DNA of 64,000 bases from Vagococcus luciliae (GTDB lineage Bacteria > Bacillota > Bacilli > Lactobacillales > Vagococcaceae): the NCBI RefSeq assembly GCF_024637875.1, contig NZ_CP102451.1:2049001-2113000 (forward strand). The letters run 5' to 3'. Each line of letters begins with the position of its first letter. The first letter of the stretch is position 1. Shown one piece after another: positions 51,629-59,185 of the stretch. The notes beneath the pieces are model-generated. The model had not been told where the DNA came from and searched no databases. It worked only from the letters and a program-made list of their open reading frames with translations. The position numbers and the translations under genes are program-made.

Positions 51629-51661
51629 ATAAAAAAGACCTAGATAATTACCTAGATCTTT
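51629..51661 (-). terminator. Terminator downstream of the beta-helix gene
   Basis: On the minus strand AAAGATCTAG and CTAGGTCTTT pair over 10 bp with one G:T, followed by a T run. It lies about 80 bases after the beta-helix stop codon. Confidence 0.75.
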
Positions 51662-51740: not shown

Positions 51741-53237
51741 TCAAAACCAACTTTTTATTTTCGTTATAATTCTTTCAAATAGACTGTCTTTTTTTAATTC
51801 CTTATCAATTTTTGAAACAGTACTATCCACTTCACCATCGACTGATTTTTTAAAATTTTTGTCTTGTGTAACATCAGGTTTATTTTTTCCTTCTTCAGCC
51901 AAAACAACTTCTTTTAAATCATTATTTCCGATAACGATATTAGTCGAATTAGAGTAAGCAAATGTACCTTCTGGTGACCATTGATTAATAACGGAAATAT
52001 TCTGATTTTTCATTTGATTATCCCAAATATTGACACTATCACTATAACCAACTAATATTCCAGCATAAGGATTCGAATTAGCTTTAAATTGAGCATTTGT
52101 ATTATCCATACTACCTAATGGCTTTGGATTGGTTAATTTATTATTATGAACATCAACATTAGAAGCACCTACAATCATTATTTGACCATTATATGCCCCT
52201 ACCCAAGCGCCATCTTGGACATTTTGGTGATTAGTATTGTTTCCATCAAAGTCATTTTCTGAAATTAAAATATTATCAATTTGAGCTTTTTGTTGGTTAC
52301 CATCGTCATCTTTATCATAAAACACCTTTTCTCCCATACCATAAAGAAGTACACCAGCATCATCATTGTTCAAAAATTTATTTTTTCTTATAATGACGTC
52401 TTTCACAGCTCTAAGCGAATGATTTTTAAAATCTGCTGGTTCTATATTAATCCCTGCGGAAGGATCTGTTCCTTTTGTTTTTTCAATGACATTATTTTCA
52501 ATTAATAAATTCTCAGCATTTTCAATTGATATACCTTGTCGTCTGTTATTCGAAATATGAGAATTTTTAATTTTTATATTACTATTTGATGTCTTTGATT
52601 CTTTATCTGCAAATAAATCAATTCCATCTCCCCACATATCAGAGATAGTAACATTATCTATTATAATATTGCTAGAGGATACCATTAAAATCCCCCAACC
52701 AGTTTCACCGTTATATTCAGGATTTCCACGTCTAAGTTTAGCATATTTATATATATGATCTTCTCTGTCACCTAGTATCTGCCCACCATAAATGGATACA
52801 TTACTAGACTCTTTAAGATTTAGCACAGTATAACTATAAAATTCATTTGGAATAGCTTTTAAAATAGCATCATCATCCATAAGAATCGTTGTATTAGATT
52901 TAACCTTTAATCCGACTGATGTGTTAACAAAACGTTGGACATTCTCCTTTGTCGATTCAGAGTCATTAGTATTAATCATGTAAGTTCCCTTAGGAAAATA
53001 AACCACTTTTTCTTTACTACCACCAACTTCATCTAAAGCTTTTTGAATATTTTTAGTGTCGTCATCTTTTCCATTTCCTACTGCTCCAAAATCGGAGACA
53101 TCAATGACATTTTTTTCTTCAACTTCAATATTATATTTTTTCATAAGATCTTTTGAACTAACTGCCTCTACTTTAATACTCATAAAAAAGAAAGTAGCTA
53201 TCATACCTAACAACACAAAATATTTAGTGTATTTCAT
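51741..53237 (-). CDS. Secreted right-handed beta-helix protein (pectate lyase-like superfamily)
   Basis: A 498-residue exported protein. Residues 1-24 form a signal peptide (KYFVLLGMIATFFFMSIKVEA). Then comes the pectate-lyase-3/GH28-type entry VIDVSDFGAVGNGKDDDTKNIQKALDE with VVYFPKGTYMIN. Repeated parallel beta-helix rungs follow (ILMVSSSNIIIDNVTISDMWGDGIDLF, ISIENAENLLIENNVIE, VLLYGMG, ILVGYSDSVNIWDNQM). It most likely binds, cleaves or epimerises a polysaccharide outside the cell. The ATG at 53237 has AAAGGAG at 9 bases. It lies downstream of the glycopolymer genes, but a terminator and its own promoter intervene. Confidence 0.85.
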   Translation of the reverse strand: MKYTKYFVLLGMIATFFFMSIKVEAVSSKDLMKKYNIEVEEKNVIDVSDFGAVGNGKDDDTKNIQKALDEVGGSKEKVVYFPKGTYMINTNDSESTKENVQRFVNTSVGLKVKSNTTILMDDDAILKAIPNEFYSYTVLNLKESSNVSIYGGQILGDREDHIYKYAKLRRGNPEYNGETGWGILMVSSSNIIIDNVTISDMWGDGIDLFADKESKTSNSNIKIKNSHISNNRRQGISIENAENLLIENNVIEKTKGTDPSAGINIEPADFKNHSLRAVKDVIIRKNKFLNNDDAGVLLYGMGEKVFYDKDDDGNQQKAQIDNILISENDFDGNNTNHQNVQDGAWVGAYNGQIMIVGASNVDVHNNKLTNPKPLGSMDNTNAQFKANSNPYAGILVGYSDSVNIWDNQMKNQNISVINQWSPEGTFAYSNSTNIVIGNNDLKEVVLAEEGKNKPDVTQDKNFKKSVDGEVDSTVSKIDKELKKDSLFERIITKIKSWF

Positions 53238-53265
53238 AAAAATATACTCCTTTCTGATAAAGTAC

Positions 53266-53294
53266 ACTATTACACAAGTGACATTTAAAGTCAA
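53266..53294 (-). promoter_or_regulatory. Probable promoter of the beta-helix gene
   Basis: On the minus strand TTGACT (53289-53294), a 17-nt spacer and AATAGT (53266-53271), with the coding start about 30 bases downstream. Confidence 0.6.
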
Positions 53295-53306
53295 ACATCT
53301 TATATT

Positions 53307-53347
53307 AAAAAAACATCCAATCAATCTCATAGTAGATTTGGATGTTT
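53307..53347 (-). terminator. Terminator after the TagF-like gene
   Basis: AAACATCCAA (53311-53320) pairs with TTGGATGTTT (53338-53347) around a 17-nt loop; on the minus strand seven T follow. Confidence 0.8.
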
Positions 53348-53404
53348 GTATTTTAATATAAAAAAGAAAATTAATTATTACAATGGTGTCATAATATTAC
53401 ATAA

Positions 53405-55342
53405 CTACTTGTTTAATTGATGATACAAATTTAAAGATGCGTCTAATATACGTTTTCTAGCATTTGTATCTTGATATTTATATAATTTCTTCAATTTTCT
53501 CTCGTGTTTTTTCAACATGTGCTCTCTTTGAAAAGCCTTATCTAATTTTTTAATCATTCTTTTTCTATTTCTCACTATATCACCAGGTAAAAATCTACCT
53601 AGCTTTGCATCTTTTTTTGCTTCAACTAATTTAGTATCAAATTGATAATAGACAATTGATTTTCTTAACAAAGCAAAATCCAAAGCTGCACTTGAATAAT
53701 CAGTCAATAAATAATCATTCTCTACTAACTCATTTTGCAAAATATAATTATCATAGCTAGTATCAATATATTCTGAGGTAAATAAATGTCTATATTGATT
53801 AAAATTAGGATGTAATAAAAATTTAGCTTTTATGTTATATCTTTTTAATAGTTCAATAAATTCTTCATCATTCAATAAACTTTGAAATTCTTGATAAAAC
53901 TCTGTTTCCATAAATTTTTCATCACTTAATCTATTTTGTCCTTTTCTCCATGATGGAAAAATCAATAATTGCTTATAATCTTTTGAAATAGACTTCCATA
54001 CCTCATACTTTGCAAATAATTCATCAAATCGAGATAAACCAGTTAGAGCTATCTCATCTTCAGAGTAAAAATAATCATTTTTTATAATTTTCTTTTCTCT
54101 ATCAGAACTACATATAAATAAATTAGTAAATTCTTTTTCTTTTTTCGCATACATAAAAGATAAATCACGTACACCTAAAATACCATGTTGTAAGAAGACT
54201 TTAAATGTATTATCTAATTTATTTTGGAATTTTAACATTTTAGTTGGCTCAGCATACATAGAACTGTGAGAATGAAAAATCATGTCAGCATCCATAAACT
54301 TTTCAAAATGTTTCATACTCTTATAATAAACAACATTATCAGGATAGTCAGTAAGATTAACTAAATCTGGAGAATGCTTATCAATAATATAAAAACAATC
54401 AAATTGGTCCGAATGATTATCCACCATAAATTTAAATTGATTAAATGCAGTATCCTGTGCTTTTTCAGGATATTCACAAAAAAGAGCTGTTAATTTCTCC
54501 GACTTATGAGTCTTCGCTTCTAAATTAAATCCCTCGCGAGACGCATATGGAATACTTTCAACAATAATAGAAGACATCTCATTTAATGTTTGATAAAATT
54601 TCATTCCAGTTAAATTTTCTTTATATTCTTGTAAAAAATAAAATTCCTGACTATTTTCATTTCCGACCCGATGTCTTCTAGCAAATAAATAATTAATTTG
54701 CGTTTGAAACATAACGGATAAATCAATAATATTATTAAAATAATTAGAATATCCTTCAAACTCTTTAAAATGAATCGAAATCTCAGGTGTAATATGAAAA
54801 TACAATCTAGAAACATATTCTAAATCTTCTTTTAAGATAAATTCTGCTCTATTAGAAGCGATACACCATCGATTGATTGTTCCTCTAAACGTAAAAAATA
54901 AGTCCCCACTAATGACAGGTGATACCAGCGTTCTAAGTTCAACAGCTACTTCAACAATACCTTCATCTATTTGATTAACGGAATAAATTTGAGGATTAGA
55001 TCTAATAAAACGATGACTTATTGGTAACTCTCCAACTAAAATTCTCATATATTTTTGTTTGGAAGGATATAAAGAAATGACCGTATCTTTAAAACTATCA
55101 TACAAATTTTCATTTTCTTGTAATACTAACTCAGAAAGATCAATTAATTCATTTCCTTCATCATCTATAATTTTTAAAATACTTGCTTTTCCACTAGTTA
55201 ATTCATAAATATCTGTAAATGGAATGACGATGATTCCTTCATGTTCCATATACTTCATTCTATTTTGTTTAAATTCTACATTAACATAATCATTTGGACA
55301 ATTACTTATATGAAATCCATTATTTTTTATTAAAACTTCCAT
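53405..55342 (-). CDS. CDP-glycerol glycerophosphotransferase family protein (TagB/TagF-like)
   Basis: A 645-residue transferase. The C-terminal half is the glyphos-transferase domain: MIFHSHSSMYAEPTK, VFLQHGILGVRDLSF, LIFPSWRKGQ, KFLLHPNFNQYR and NDYLLTDYSSAALDFALLRKS. The first 280 residues are an extra beta-rich and helical region with no recognised domain. It would transfer glycerol-3-phosphate from CDP-glycerol to a sugar or growing polymer at the membrane. TagD, the enzyme that makes CDP-glycerol, is encoded three genes upstream. The ATG at 55342 has GGAGG before it. Confidence 0.88.
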   Translation of the reverse strand: MEVLIKNNGFHISNCPNDYVNVEFKQNRMKYMEHEGIIVIPFTDIYELTSGKASILKIIDDEGNELIDLSELVLQENENLYDSFKDTVISLYPSKQKYMRILVGELPISHRFIRSNPQIYSVNQIDEGIVEVAVELRTLVSPVISGDLFFTFRGTINRWCIASNRAEFILKEDLEYVSRLYFHITPEISIHFKEFEGYSNYFNNIIDLSVMFQTQINYLFARRHRVGNENSQEFYFLQEYKENLTGMKFYQTLNEMSSIIVESIPYASREGFNLEAKTHKSEKLTALFCEYPEKAQDTAFNQFKFMVDNHSDQFDCFYIIDKHSPDLVNLTDYPDNVVYYKSMKHFEKFMDADMIFHSHSSMYAEPTKMLKFQNKLDNTFKVFLQHGILGVRDLSFMYAKKEKEFTNLFICSSDREKKIIKNDYFYSEDEIALTGLSRFDELFAKYEVWKSISKDYKQLLIFPSWRKGQNRLSDEKFMETEFYQEFQSLLNDEEFIELLKRYNIKAKFLLHPNFNQYRHLFTSEYIDTSYDNYILQNELVENDYLLTDYSSAALDFALLRKSIVYYQFDTKLVEAKKDAKLGRFLPGDIVRNRKRMIKKLDKAFQREHMLKKHERKLKKLYKYQDTNARKRILDASLNLYHQLNK

Positions 55343-55364
55343 GACATCCTCCAATAAAAAACCT

Positions 55365-56786
55365 TTACACTAAGTTATCTGGGTTATTTCTTTTTATTTC
55401 TCCCCATTCATGTTTTTTCTCTTTGCTTGTAAATAAGAATTTTAACGTCCCTAATAACTTAGCGTATAGAGAAATCCAATGGTAAGAAAATGCTTCTATT
55501 ACTGCTAAAAATAATAAATAAATTCTATCTAAATAGGAAATTCTTTGTATTTTTGTATTTTGAGCTATAACTGTAAAAGTAAAGAACAAGTTAATAAAAT
55601 AAGATAGAAGGAAAACAAACACTGCCTCTTGCCATGTTACAACACTTACCATAACAAAATATATACCTAAGCCTAATCCAATTGTTTCCATAAAGAAACT
55701 AATAATTTCTGTAAAAATAAATAAAGGTAGTCCAATAATCCCAACATTTTTATAATTTTTATTAAATATCATTTTTCTATATTTAAATATCGTTTGTAAG
55801 AAACCTATTTGCCATCTAGAGCGTTGCTTAACTAAATCGCCAATTGTTGAAGGTGGTTGTGTCCAACAAACAGAGTCATAAATAAATATCTGTTTACTAG
55901 ATAAATTATGATCATCAATATATTTTCTAATACCTAAAGTTAAATCAAAATCTTCTCCGATTGAGTATGTATCATATCCATTTATTTCTCTAAGCATATC
56001 TAATTTATAGACACCAAAAGCCCCTGATATAATAACTGTACTATCTATATTACTTAAACTAGATCTAAATACTAATACACTTCTTAAATATTCTAAATAT
56101 TGGAAACCAGTTAATAAATTCCACGTTCTAACTTTAATTGATCTTTGTGCAAAGTTTTCTTGTCTTGTCATTGGTCTAATAAGTCCACCAATAGAAGCAA
56201 TATCATCTGAAAAATAAAAAGGCGTCATAAGTGTCAATAACGCATTTTTTTCTAAGAAAGAATCAGCATCAACAAACGAGATATAAGGCGTTCTAGCATA
56301 GTTGATTCCTACATTTAATGCATCAGATTTTCCACCATTGACTTTATTAATTAAATAGATATTAGGGTATTCCTCACTTTGATAAAAGCCAAGAACCTTT
56401 TCAGTTTCTATACTGCCGATTTTTTCTAAAAAATCAATTTTTTTCATATTCAATTCATTGATACAAATATCCATGGTATGATCTTTTGATCCATCATTAA
56501 CAATATACAGTGTTAAATCCTTATAGTTTTGTTGAATAAAACTATTAACAGATTGTATAATCGTTTCTTTTTCATTATAAGCAGGTATAACCACAGTTAA
56601 CGGCAAGCTATTTTGTCGACTAATACTTGAATTTGAATCTAATAAATTGTCTGATAGGATAATCCTATCAGACTTTACTTTTTTCATTTCTCTTCTTGAT
56701 AATATAATCTGAAAACCATATATCGTAAAAAATATATAATTTATTACAAGGGCTGCAATCCCTACAAATATTACTAAATTACTCAT
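55365..56786 (-). CDS. Membrane glycosyltransferase family 2, PgaC/IcaA-like synthase
   Basis: A 473-residue processive-type GT2. One N-terminal membrane segment precedes the catalytic domain: PLTVVIPAYNEKETI, LYIVNDGSKDHT, YISFVDADSFLEKNA (DxD), YSIGEDFDLTLGIR (ED) and LVKQRSRWQIGF (QxxRW). Three to four C-terminal membrane helices follow. This D, DxD, ED, QxxRW set is that of synthases making beta-linked polysaccharides such as poly-N-acetylglucosamine, cellulose or hyaluronan. It lies between the unknown membrane protein and the TagF-like transferase. The sugar it uses is not predictable. Confidence 0.9.
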   Translation of the reverse strand: MSNLVIFVGIAALVINYIFFTIYGFQIILSRREMKKVKSDRIILSDNLLDSNSSISRQNSLPLTVVIPAYNEKETIIQSVNSFIQQNYKDLTLYIVNDGSKDHTMDICINELNMKKIDFLEKIGSIETEKVLGFYQSEEYPNIYLINKVNGGKSDALNVGINYARTPYISFVDADSFLEKNALLTLMTPFYFSDDIASIGGLIRPMTRQENFAQRSIKVRTWNLLTGFQYLEYLRSVLVFRSSLSNIDSTVIISGAFGVYKLDMLREINGYDTYSIGEDFDLTLGIRKYIDDHNLSSKQIFIYDSVCWTQPPSTIGDLVKQRSRWQIGFLQTIFKYRKMIFNKNYKNVGIIGLPLFIFTEIISFFMETIGLGLGIYFVMVSVVTWQEAVFVFLLSYFINLFFTFTVIAQNTKIQRISYLDRIYLLFLAVIEAFSYHWISLYAKLLGTLKFLFTSKEKKHEWGEIKRNNPDNLV

Positions 56787-56800
56787 TATTTTTTATCCTC

Positions 56801-57388
56801 TCAATTTAAATAAAGTTCTGTTTCTAATTTATTAAATAAGTCAGCATTAAACTTATGATTTTTTTCCTGTTTAATTAAATTATAGAAATCCATATTTTTC
56901 GACTTCATCATTGAATAAAGAATAAAAAATTGTGCTTGTCCAGTGTATTCATCAAAATTATCAACAAGAATATCTTTACAATCATCTAATTGAAGTAAAT
57001 CAGCTAAGTAAAGAACTTCATAAACAACAGCATCATCTGCACTATAAAAATAATTCATTATTTTTGGTTCTAACTTTATGTCTTGTATAAACTGTTTTCT
57101 ATCTATCCCACAAATTTGTAAACTATTATCAATATCTTGTTCAATTGATTTACAACTAAAAACTATAGAAATTAAATCAGCAACTGAACTTTTTTTCACT
57201 ACGCGTCTCATCTTTTTAGAAAAATACTTATATTTATTTTTCACAGTAAATTTATCTACATACTTTCTAACTTTTTTAATTTGTTTATTTTTTTTATTTC
57301 GACTGATTGCCATAGGTATTGGACTAAATAAAATATAAATCAGCATTAATAAACTAAGAAAAATAGCTACTCCTAATAAAAAAAGCAC
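56801..57388 (-). CDS. Membrane-anchored protein of unknown function in the glycopolymer locus
   Basis: A 195-residue protein with one N-terminal membrane helix (FLLGVAIFLSLLMLIYILFSPI), a strongly basic juxtamembrane stretch (KNKKNKQIKKVRKYVDKF) and a helical cytosolic domain resembling paired-helix repeats (AVVYEVLYLADLLQLDDCKDIL). I do not recognise the family. It sits between tagD and the GT2 gene, 14 bases from the latter, so it may be a partner or regulator of the synthase, as small membrane partners are for PgaC/IcaA-type enzymes. Confidence 0.75.
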   Translation of the reverse strand: MLFLLGVAIFLSLLMLIYILFSPIPMAISRNKKNKQIKKVRKYVDKFTVKNKYKYFSKKMRRVVKKSSVADLISIVFSCKSIEQDIDNSLQICGIDRKQFIQDIKLEPKIMNYFYSADDAVVYEVLYLADLLQLDDCKDILVDNFDEYTGQAQFFILYSMMKSKNMDFYNLIKQEKNHKFNADLFNKLETELYLN

Positions 57389-57417
57389 AAAATCACTCCA
57401 AATTTTTTATTTAAATA

Positions 57418-57813
57418 TTATTTGTTACCGATATCTTTTTTGATTTGTGTTGTTGAAATTTCAGGCGTTCTCTCAAGATAGACAACATCTGCTCCTGTTT
57501 CTTTCACAAAATCAAATTGGCCTTTCCAATCGTCTCCCATCACAAATACATCCACTTTAAATTCATCAATATCGGTTATTTTTTGGTCCCACGCTTGTTC
57601 TGGTATAACTAAATCCACATAACGTATTGCTTCTAGCAACATTTTCCTTTTTTCATATGAAAAATAACACTTTTTTTGTTTTTCATTCCAATTGAATTCA
57701 TCAGTAGATAAAGCAACAATCAGATAATCACCTTGTTCTTTTGCACGACGTAGTAAGTTAATATGTCCGTAGTGTAACAAATCAAATGTTCCATATGTAA
57801 TCACTTTTCTCAT
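57418..57813 (-). CDS. tagD: Glycerol-3-phosphate cytidylyltransferase TagD
   Basis: A 131-residue enzyme making CDP-glycerol from CTP and glycerol-3-phosphate. It has VITYGTFDLLHYGHINLLRRAKEQGD (HxGH motif) and YLERTPEISTTQIK (the RTxGISTT signature), with FVMGDDWKGQFDFV. It provides the donor for the TagF-like transferase. It begins 19 bases after the CNNM-type gene, so transcription may partly read in from there. Confidence 0.96.
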   Translation of the reverse strand: MRKVITYGTFDLLHYGHINLLRRAKEQGDYLIVALSTDEFNWNEKQKKCYFSYEKRKMLLEAIRYVDLVIPEQAWDQKITDIDEFKVDVFVMGDDWKGQFDFVKETGADVVYLERTPEISTTQIKKDIGNK

Positions 57814-57832: not shown

Positions 57833-59185
57833 TTAATCATCATCACGTGATTTGTAATATTTGTCATCTTCATCTTCTTCAACTTCATTGATTGTCACAA
57901 GTATTTCTAATAATCGTGTTCCTTCTGCTTTATACGTTGTCAAATCAATATGATCGATATGAATGGTTAAGTGTTCATCCTTTTCAGGAATCACTCCCAA
58001 TTCAGTAATCATAAATCCAGCCATTGTATCAACATCTGTCATCGAAATAGTTGTTCCAAATTTTTCATTAAAATCATTAATTAACATACGTGCTTCAATG
58101 AGATATTGATTATCACTTACTTGTTTTAATAAATGATCAATCGTTAATTCATCTGATTCATCGTCAATCTCACCAACAATCTCCTCTAATAAATCTTCAA
58201 ACGTTACTAAACCAGATACACCACCATATTCATCTAATAAGATGGCCATGTGATTTTGTGTTTTCTTTAACTCTCTTAATAAATCATCAATAAAAATCGT
58301 TTCTGGTACATATAATGGTTCATGTATCACATTCAACAGATTTAAATTTTCAAATCCTTTTTCTCTGGCTTCTTTTAGTAAGTTTTTCAAATGTAGAATC
58401 CCGATGACTTTATCTTTATCGTCATCATAAACTGGAATTCTTGAGAAATTGTTTCCTAATACTTTATCAATATTATCTTCTGCTGAGTCGTGAATATCAA
58501 TCATGAAAGCATCAGTACGTGGTACCATTACTTCTCTAGCCATTGTAGTGTCTAATCCAAAAATCCCTTGCACCATTTCCAACTCATCAGAGTCTAAGAC
58601 TCCTTCATTAGTTAGCATATAGGCCATTTCTTCACGAGTCATACGTTCTTTTTCATCATCAAACTTCATTGGCGTAATACGACTTAAGATATTTGTTGAA
58701 CTTGATAATAACCATACAAACGGTCTCATCACTTTACCTAACAATGAAATAGGTCCCATTACAAATCTAGCAACCTCTTCAGGTTTATTTAAAGCAATTC
58801 GTTTTGGATATAATTCCCCAAATACAATAGAAATATACGTTAATAACACTAGCACAATCACTTGTGATGCTTGTTTTGCCCAAGCAACATCACCAAAAAC
58901 AGGTGCTAACTCTCTAGCAAAAGAATTTGCCAAAGAAGCCCCTGACAAGATAGTAACTAACGTAATCCCTACTTGAATAGTCGATAAAAAATTTCCTGAA
59001 TCATTGATTAGACCCAACAATTTAATAGCTGATTTGTCTCCTTCTTCAGCCTTATTTTCCAATCTGTTTCTATTTACCGAAATAACGGAAACCTCCGCAG
59101 CAGCAAAAAACGCATTAAGTAACGTTAAAACAACCAAAATAATAATATTGATAAAAATAGACTGACTCTCAGGGTCAGCGTTCAT
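57833..59185 (-). CDS. CNNM/HlyC-CorC family membrane protein
   Basis: A 450-residue protein with a CNNM (DUF21) domain of about four membrane segments (IIILVVLTLLNAFFAAAEVSVIS), two CBS domains (VMVPRTDAFMIDI, HMAILLDEYGGVSGLVTFEDLLEEIVGEI) and a C-terminal CorC_HlyC domain. Bacterial relatives are implicated in magnesium or other cation efflux; 'hemolysin' in older names is misleading. It stands between the AI-2E-family gene and tagD. Confidence 0.9.
   Translation of the reverse strand: MNADPESQSIFINIIILVVLTLLNAFFAAAEVSVISVNRNRLENKAEEGDKSAIKLLGLINDSGNFLSTIQVGITLVTILSGASLANSFARELAPVFGDVAWAKQASQVIVLVLLTYISIVFGELYPKRIALNKPEEVARFVMGPISLLGKVMRPFVWLLSSSTNILSRITPMKFDDEKERMTREEMAYMLTNEGVLDSDELEMVQGIFGLDTTMAREVMVPRTDAFMIDIHDSAEDNIDKVLGNNFSRIPVYDDDKDKVIGILHLKNLLKEAREKGFENLNLLNVIHEPLYVPETIFIDDLLRELKKTQNHMAILLDEYGGVSGLVTFEDLLEEIVGEIDDESDELTIDHLLKQVSDNQYLIEARMLINDFNEKFGTTISMTDVDTMAGFMITELGVIPEKDEHLTIHIDHIDLTTYKAEGTRLLEILVTINEVEEDEDDKYYKSRDDD

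Follow-up and report, generated by a model that had tools for sequence, protein, structure and literature searches.

A small surface-glycan gene cassette of three Vagococcus species, next to tagD in V. luciliae, a probable variant of glycan synthase loci with HEAT-repeat partners

A four-gene cassette in Vagococcus luciliae

The stretch of Vagococcus luciliae DNA analyzed here (64,000 nucleotides; contig NZ_CP102451.1, positions 2,049,001 to 2,113,000; hereafter the window) carries a real small surface-glycan cassette on the minus strand, directly behind tagD, the gene for glycerol-3-phosphate cytidylyltransferase. The cassette encodes, in order, a small protein with a hydrophobic segment (UNK), a membrane glycosyltransferase of family 2 (GT2), a protein of the CDP-glycerol glycerophosphotransferase family (TagF-like) and a right-handed beta-helix protein (BH). 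It was found in three species of one genus and is probably a variant of synthase loci in which GT2 is partnered by a HEAT-repeat protein; a TagF-fold enzyme and a beta-helix protein take the place of the usual companions of such loci. We propose, with a probability of roughly 0.4, that these genes form an accessory cassette in which a HEAT-type synthase pair extrudes a glycan, the TagF-like enzyme primes or caps it with glycerol phosphate, and BH acts on it outside the cell.

The initial annotation had read five open reading frames, in the order TagD-UNK-GT2-TagF-like-BH, as a candidate new surface-glycopolymer system. All five frames were found in the window in that order, on the minus strand. 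The claim of a surface-glycan system was partly supported: a GT2 of processive type and a TagF-fold protein occur together with an exported beta-helix protein in three species, but TagD had to be removed from the system. To place the genes among relatives, three samples were used: 29 genomes of the family (14 of them of the genus), 395 of the order, drawn from a larger group, and 398 of the class. The tagD product (57418-57813, minus strand) matched TIGR01518 at 210.7 bits (cut-off 165.4) and was the sole copy above cut-off in its own genome (G000; 2.15 Mb, two contigs). The second contig of G000 matched two Vagococcus plasmids (78% and 96% identity over 13% and 7% of its length) and two Leuconostoc plasmids (72% over 7%). 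Of the 29 family genomes, 23 had a TIGR01518 match above cut-off; each of the 14 genus genomes had a single match of this strength, and 10 of these 14 gave no GT2 match at E ≤ 1e-20; G009 and G015 each showed one extra match, far below cut-off. The gene for a CNNM membrane protein directly adjoined tagD in five genomes: with the cassette in our own and G013, and without it in G003, G010 and G014. In G009 the cassette lay directly behind the CNNM gene, and tagD was found about 9 kb away, beside a UDP-N-acetylglucosamine 2-epimerase-like gene. tagD is the housekeeping CDP-glycerol supplier of the genus, and it very probably feeds the teichoic acid of this genome as well. Because TagD is genus-wide and often occurs without the cassette, we define the cassette as the four genes behind it. 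The case advises caution: the adjacency of tagD resembled that of a dedicated precursor gene, yet tagD belongs to the housekeeping set of the genus.

Conservation of the cassette

The complete order UNK-GT2-TagF-like-BH was present in three of the 29 family genomes (our own, G013 and G009), with all four frames intact in each. Because G013 and G009 both repeat the arrangement of the four genes, a chance array is ruled out. Strong GT2 matches (at least 541 bits) were seen in four family genomes: our own, G013 (96% identity), G009 (63%) and G012 (54%); a fifth genome held a 77-bit relative. Between the window and G009, identity was 60-63% for GT2, TagF-like and BH alike and about 40% for UNK; for flanking genes it was 63-64% (MutY, RecX), 75% (AI2E), 81% (CNNM) and 92% (TagD). 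The names MutY, RecX, AI2E, DUF402, rml, tyrosyl-tRNA synthetase and UDP-N-acetylglucosamine 2-epimerase were read off the sequences and are what we take these genes to be. The equal divergence of GT2, TagF-like and BH, together with the kept order, speaks for joint function or joint inheritance.

Presence of the cassette did not follow similarity of the neighboring CNNM gene: the cassette was absent from G003, G010 and G014 (CNNM 92-94% identical to that of the window) and present in G009 (81%). The GC content of the cassette was 27%, compared with 33% for the window; in G009 the values were 31.9% and 34-35%. This patchy presence and low GC content suggest loss in some lineages or transfer.

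The GT2 synthase

GT2 (55365-56786, minus strand) scored above cut-off for PF00535, PF13641 and PF13632. Hydrophobic segments flank its catalytic domain on both sides, and it carries D98, D173xD175, E278D279 and Q321xxR324W325, which we take to be the motifs of a processive synthase. An alignment of 41 rows joined the window to 40 loci. The order search supplied 28 of these, three of them genus members; a contig search supplied the best ten of at least 80, and plasmids the last two. D98, D173, D175, E278, D279, Q321, R324 and W325 were kept in 41 of 41 rows. The contig search, which started from the GT2 alignment and relied on two generic peptide patterns, was uninformative on the cassette in named species.

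GT2 had been described as PgaC/IcaA-type. A broad likeness was confirmed: like the PgaC/IcaA synthases, GT2 has D, D, D and QxxRW motifs and flanking hydrophobic segments. Membership in that family was rejected, however, as GT2 reached 101.8 bits against a TIGR03937 cut-off of 422.3. The XrtG-associated glycosyltransferase family (TIGR03111) was also tried and rejected (109.6 bits, cut-off 363.95). PgaC/IcaA synthase loci differ from the window in having a deacetylase: in agreement with the annotation, which had noted that the deacetylase of poly-N-acetylglucosamine loci is lacking, no PF01522 match was found among nine scanned proteins (the five described above and four neighbors). Two PF01522 genes lie elsewhere in the genome.

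Within the order, GT2 was matched at E ≤ 1e-50 in 28 of the 395 genomes, our own included; the four genus members scored at least 541 bits, and the next genome 254 bits. These order scans, like those for TagF-like and UNK, scored the top three to eight candidates per genome, and absences in them are not absolute. Relatives of GT2 ranged from Bacillota to archaea among the matches listed. A tblastn search of plasmids returned 263 records, 20 of which covered 80% of the query, all at less than 60% identity. The literature searches turned up no characterized member of this GT2 family, and those on HEAT plus GT2, CotH/DUF4956, glycerol phosphate exopolysaccharides, mixed-linkage glucan and Vagococcus polysaccharides returned no paper that we recognized as being about the cassette.

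UNK as a probable partner of GT2

UNK (56801-57388, minus strand; 195 aa) has one N-terminal hydrophobic segment (residues 1-29, by hydropathy) followed by a domain modeled as all-helical. We consider it quite probable that UNK is a shortened HEAT-repeat partner of GT2. Upstream neighbors of GT2 relatives were scanned at 35 loci, with three genus members and two loci lacking a same-strand neighbor within 150 bp set aside. Pfam HEAT_2 was matched at E ≤ 0.01 in 29 of the 35 neighbors; among the other six, three were probably ODP/response-regulator proteins and two probably GH16 proteins. Typical HEAT partners were about 330-400 aa long, many with an N-terminal membrane-like segment by eye. UNK holds the position of the HEAT partner, directly upstream of GT2, and has a membrane segment.

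Profile comparison was consistent with this assignment. Twenty-eight HEAT partners were picked by eye from 37 non-genus loci, after removal of seven neighbors and the two loci without one. When a four-sequence UNK profile was aligned with these 28 in hhalign ('-glob 0'), the match spanned the whole length of UNK with a probability of 85, a score of 36.7 and P = 7.2e-7. With the -glob option left out, the score came to 39.0 (P = 4.1e-5); none of 100 column shuffles in which the membrane segment stayed in place exceeded 26.4. An AlphaFold model of UNK was helical throughout (mean predicted local distance difference test score, pLDDT, 81.6). In a second structural look the top rows were mostly HEAT/ARM-type proteins and designed helical repeats, and the A subunit of protein phosphatase 2A aligned over 151 residues at 3.6 Å with Z 8.5; for repeat proteins, a Z in this range does not settle the matter.

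Whole-length relatives of UNK were found in 4 of the 395 order genomes, our own included; 13 others gave weak partial matches. Among the selected loci, GT2-HEAT pairs elsewhere stood beside response regulators, GGDEF or HD-domain proteins, or CotH. A Planococcus plasmid (NZ_CP059541) carries such a pair with polyphosphate polymerase, DUF4956 and CotH. A Clostridium perfringens necrotic-enteritis locus (CP4_0466-CP4_0468) is reported with a run of genes for CotH, a protein of 685 aa, a HEAT protein and a GT2 named 'chitin synthase' (PMC2879425). Gram-positive pel loci, too, have CotH, polyphosphate polymerase and DUF4956 next to them (PMC7112168). The C. perfringens and Planococcus loci have a HEAT-repeat membrane protein directly upstream of a GT2, as ours probably has in shortened form; for C. 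perfringens the likeness is one of description. They differ from the window, where the probable partner is short at 195 aa and TagF-like and BH replace those companions. A scan of nine window proteins found no CotH, polyphosphate polymerase, DUF4956, response regulator or GGDEF; one GGDEF protein is encoded elsewhere in the genome. If UNK is such a partner, its natural shortness (about 195 aa) would make it convenient for testing the role of the HEAT subunit.

The TagF-like protein

TagF-like (53405-55354, minus strand) matched PF04464 at 90.4 bits (cut-off 22.1). Its start is possibly the ATG at 55342 rather than the TTG at 55354. A model built from ten aligned rows (pLDDT 88.3; predicted template modeling score 0.81) showed an N-terminal beta-rich region (about residues 1-280) and a GT-B-like catalytic domain (about 285-649). 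The protein has no hydrophobic segment and is predicted to be cytosolic. The catalytic part aligned with TagF 3l7j at Z 28.4 (367 residues, 4.7 Å), with the capsule synthesis multienzymes 8qoy (Z 27.2), 8a0c (27.0) and 8a0m (25.6), and with Staphylococcus aureus TarL at Z 25.6 over 427 residues with a root-mean-square deviation of 17.7 Å. The structural search bears almost wholly on the catalytic domain, and the N-terminal beta fold was barely covered. H390 and H515, which presumably have the catalytic role of the TagF histidines, were invariant in the ten rows, and the TDYSS region was conserved or nearly so. With the single sequence, a phmmer search of the PDB returned no hit at E ≤ 0.1; TarL and TagF were picked up by the ten-row profile. 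The model assigns TagF-like, with confidence in the fold, to the TagF-fold CDP-glycerol glycerophosphotransferase family. It shares PF04464, the TagF fold and the conserved TDYSS region with TagF, TarL and the capsule multienzymes (3l7i-m, 8va1, 8a0c, 8a0m, 8qoy). It differs from them in its low identity (13-19% over structurally aligned positions), in its 280-residue N-terminal beta region and in the placement of its gene next to GT2 and not in a teichoic-acid locus.

The three cassette TagF-like sequences matched 21 of the 395 order genomes at E ≤ 1e-40. The best relatives outside the cassette species were C-terminal parts of proteins of 1358-1398 aa, and those of G023 and G027 aligned over nearly the whole of TagF-like, including the N-terminal region; the remaining relatives were frames of about 660 to 1130 aa. 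These long proteins (L267, L268 and L269, in G007, G023 and G027) are encoded by single genes with PF04464 at both ends, and no teichoic-acid cluster was seen in the 14-17 kb read around them. In plasmids, tblastn with TagF-like returned no record covering 80% of the query; in the two Staphylococcus plasmid loci read that carry TagF relatives, GT2 had no relative at E ≤ 1e-30.

A lone 660-aa TagF-like enzyme, 27% identical over a whole-length alignment, was seen in G005 (L172:8655-10637). Its gene lies between lipoprotein-like and DUF402-type genes, in the same AI2E/CNNM/MutY/RecX neighborhood as the cassette. The TagF-like half can therefore stand alone, as in G005.

The beta-helix protein

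The beta-helix frame had been listed last in order, where it was found, with a start at 53330 that proved to be 31 codons too early. In both BH homologues the first residue corresponds to residue 32 of the listed frame (position 53237), and a Shine-Dalgarno-like AAAGGAG lies just upstream; because the two agree, the start was set at 53237, giving a protein of 498 aa (51741-53237, minus strand). BH matched PF13229 at 51.8 bits (cut-off 25.9) and PF12708 at 42 bits (cut-off 27), and its N-terminus is hydrophobic and signal-like by hydropathy. Its best sequence matches were phage tail fibre gp22, tail-spikes, glucanases and alginate C5-epimerases. BH looks like an exported beta-helix protein of a glycan-binding or glycan-cutting kind.

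Full-length BH was limited to our own genome, G013 and G009 among the 29 family genomes. In the class sample 16 of 398 genomes matched at E ≤ 1e-10, with full length in our own and G013; G009 was not among the matches. BH matched 349 phage records at E ≤ 1e-5, its coverage staying below 80% in every one, and no plasmid record covered 80% of the query in tblastn. Contig C2 of G013 also carries two beta-helix frames of 677 and 651 aa (L216 and L217: 4540-5379 and 44006-44845) with identical BH scores of 65.9 bits, possibly tail-spike-like copies.

Teichoic-acid-type genes of the genome

The absence of tagO, tagA and tagGH, which had been noted for this system, was confirmed at the locus, where tagO, tagA, tagB and tagGH were not found. 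It does not hold for the genome. PF04464 had four matches in G000. One is the cassette gene; the other three lie at C1 2131787-2136753, some 19-24 kb beyond the window. Between C1 2129 and 2138 kb lie genes for a WecG/TagA-family protein, two PF04464 proteins (377 and 389 aa), two TagG/TagH-type ABC-transporter subunits and a protein of 1176 aa that combines PF04464 with GW and glycosyltransferase domains. Elsewhere there are two PF00953 (TagO/MraY superfamily) genes, one at the very start of C1. Because of these genes, the absence statement is restricted to the locus. Next to the teichoic-acid-type locus is one of capsule type that encodes a polysaccharide pyruvyl transferase; the two lie about 5-25 kb beyond the window (L171, G000:C1:2118001-2138000).

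Proposed mechanism and alternative explanations

In processive GT2 enzymes the active site is cytosolic and the chain enters a membrane channel while it grows. GT2, as a hyaluronan/chitin/PgaC-type synthase, would join sugars at the cytosolic face and push the chain out through its own membrane helices, with UNK as a structural or regulatory partner. Cytosolic TagF-like would draw CDP-glycerol from the common TagD pool and add glycerol phosphate to the GT2 product. As the chain would be extruded while it grows, a cytosolic glycerophosphotransferase could not reach side positions already exported, and we predict priming or capping: glycerol phosphate would sit at the chain beginning, as a primer or linker like those of capsule transition transferases, or at the growing end as a cap, and not in side chains. 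The annotation's link between glycan and glycerol phosphate is sensible in this form if TagF-like acts on the GT2 product, but decoration along the length is doubtful with an extruding synthase and a predicted cytosolic TagF-like protein. Exported BH, probably made from its own transcript, may bind, trim or epimerize the glycan. We infer processivity, the acceptor of glycerol phosphate and the activity of BH, and any identity given to the sugar would likewise be an inference; families, motifs, modeled folds, gene order, conservation and the distribution of TagD were computed.

A partial parallel exists among capsule enzymes. CpsA, a PF04464 transition transferase, builds a glycerol phosphate linker that is extended by the capsule polymerase, as set out in PMC11666461. 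By analogy, the transition transferases described there share with TagF-like the Pfam family and the linker role proposed for it. The capsule there is exported by an ABC transporter from a glycolipid of 3-deoxy-D-manno-oct-2-ulosonic acid (Kdo), in contrast to the self-extruding synthase suggested for the cassette. That a few species of one genus make an extruded exopolysaccharide with glycerol phosphate at its start or end, by means of a HEAT-type GT2 and a TagF-fold enzyme, is a specific outcome that we hold to be somewhat unlikely. If true, it would join synthase-dependent glycans and teichoic-type chemistry in a hybrid that uses the teichoic-acid CDP-glycerol pool.

Several observations weigh against the proposed cassette function. 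UNK reached no Pfam cut-off, and Foldseek with its model gave no match at E ≤ 0.001. Without the membrane segment the UNK-HEAT alignment fell to a score of 24.3 (P = 0.0063; shuffle maximum 16.9), which is weak in absolute terms, and comparisons with single HEAT subgroups were also weak (P = 0.0019, 0.0093 and 0.11). BH may only bind, because phage tail-spike and tail-fibre proteins match it as well as enzymes do. G012 carries UNK-GT2 without TagF-like or BH, behind a tyrosyl-tRNA-synthetase-like gene, and the synthase pair can thus stand alone. In seven neighborhoods of TagF relatives that were read, some with the gene alone and some with teichoic-acid genes beside it, no GT2 relative adjoined. 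Of the 395 order genomes, 28 matched GT2 and 21 matched TagF-like, and only our own, G013 and G009 were in both sets: none of the 18 other TagF-positive and none of the 25 other GT2-positive genomes held both families. As about 1.2 would be expected by chance, the missing overlap shows only that the two families do not need each other. Among the matches listed for GT2 relatives, none of 105 non-genus loci encoded UNK or TagF-like at E ≤ 1 in hidden Markov model searches, and one gave a weak BH match (E = 0.0048). Independent scattering of the genes in related genomes, named beforehand as a sign against a joint system, was thus partly seen, in G012, in G005 and in the 28 and 21 genome sets; against it stand the three species in which the four genes are together.

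Because UNK-GT2 in G012 and TagF-like in G005 each stand alone, an explanation in which two functions lie side by side is almost level with the proposed cassette function. Here, GT2-UNK would make a plain extruded polysaccharide, and TagF-like would modify wall teichoic acid or another lipid-linked polymer with CDP-glycerol from the same TagD; the genes would be neighbors because the CNNM-tagD spot collects surface-glycan genes. TagD as the genus-wide single-copy supplier, the teichoic-acid-type locus that lies about 20 kb beyond the window, and the TagF relatives that several times stand alone or in teichoic-acid clusters in the seven neighborhoods all fit this explanation. So do the 27%-identical TagF-like enzyme of G005, alone in the same chromosomal neighborhood, and G003, G010 and G014, which by sequence reading carry other surface-glycan-type genes behind CNNM-tagD in place of the cassette. 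However, TagF-like lies right behind GT2 in three species, in one of them at about 60% identity, and a shared neighborhood alone predicts no fixed order.

Two further explanations are improbable. GT2 might be non-processive and transfer a single sugar, or a few, to a lipid-linked carrier, alternating with glycerol phosphate addition by TagF-like, to yield a poly(glycosylglycerol phosphate) with TagGH-type export. Capsule multienzymes with a TagF-like part rank high among the structural matches of TagF-like, PMC8262930 reports capsule polymerases of this type for such polymers, and TagG/TagH-type ABC-transporter subunits are encoded in the genome; yet GT2 has QxxRW and hydrophobic segments on both sides of its catalytic domain, and the cassette holds no flippase or transporter. 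The block could also be decaying or neutral cargo, AT-rich, horizontally acquired and without present function. This would agree with the GC difference, which is smaller in G009, and with the absence of the cassette from three genomes closer by CNNM than G009. It is at odds with four frames intact in three species and with invariant catalytic motif residues.

Transcript organization and neighboring genes

The cassette is preceded by the CNNM/CBS/CorC_HlyC membrane protein gene (57833-59185, minus strand; Pfam CNNM, CBS and CorC_HlyC), a conserved flank outside the cassette. Intergenic gaps were 19 bp (CNNM-TagD), 29 bp (TagD-UNK), 14 bp (UNK-GT2) and 10 bp (GT2-TagF-like). The gap between TagF-like and BH, measured from the corrected BH start, was 167 bp and holds a hairpin with a T-run, a probable terminator (53295-53345, minus strand; -10.2 kcal/mol). 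This hairpin is modest, with 11 of 200 shuffles folding at least as well; the same gap in G009 (L034) includes a 131-nt stretch with a fold z of -5.15 and a 14-pair hairpin with a T-run. Because such a hairpin separates BH from the TagF-like gene, the BH gene probably forms its own transcript. A probable intrinsic terminator follows BH (51634-51661, minus strand), with a 12-pair stem and T-run at -13.8 kcal/mol; none of 200 shuffles was as good. Promoter-like matches in the region numbered 51, compared with a shuffle mean of 61.7; there was no excess and they were given no weight.

An inverted repeat with 11-bp arms (GTCTGATAGGATAATCCTATCAGAC) lies at 56649-56673 in the 5' part of the GT2 gene and is followed by a T-rich stretch on the plus strand. 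At the CNNM-tagD spot of G003, G010 and G014 (L218, L219 and L220), surface-glycan-type genes were seen that differ between the species: sugar-nucleotide genes, glycosyltransferases and large secreted proteins. By our reading, the spot in G003 and G014 includes rhamnose-type sugar-nucleotide genes, which in G014 follow transposase-like genes. The spot is a possible exchange site for envelope genes.

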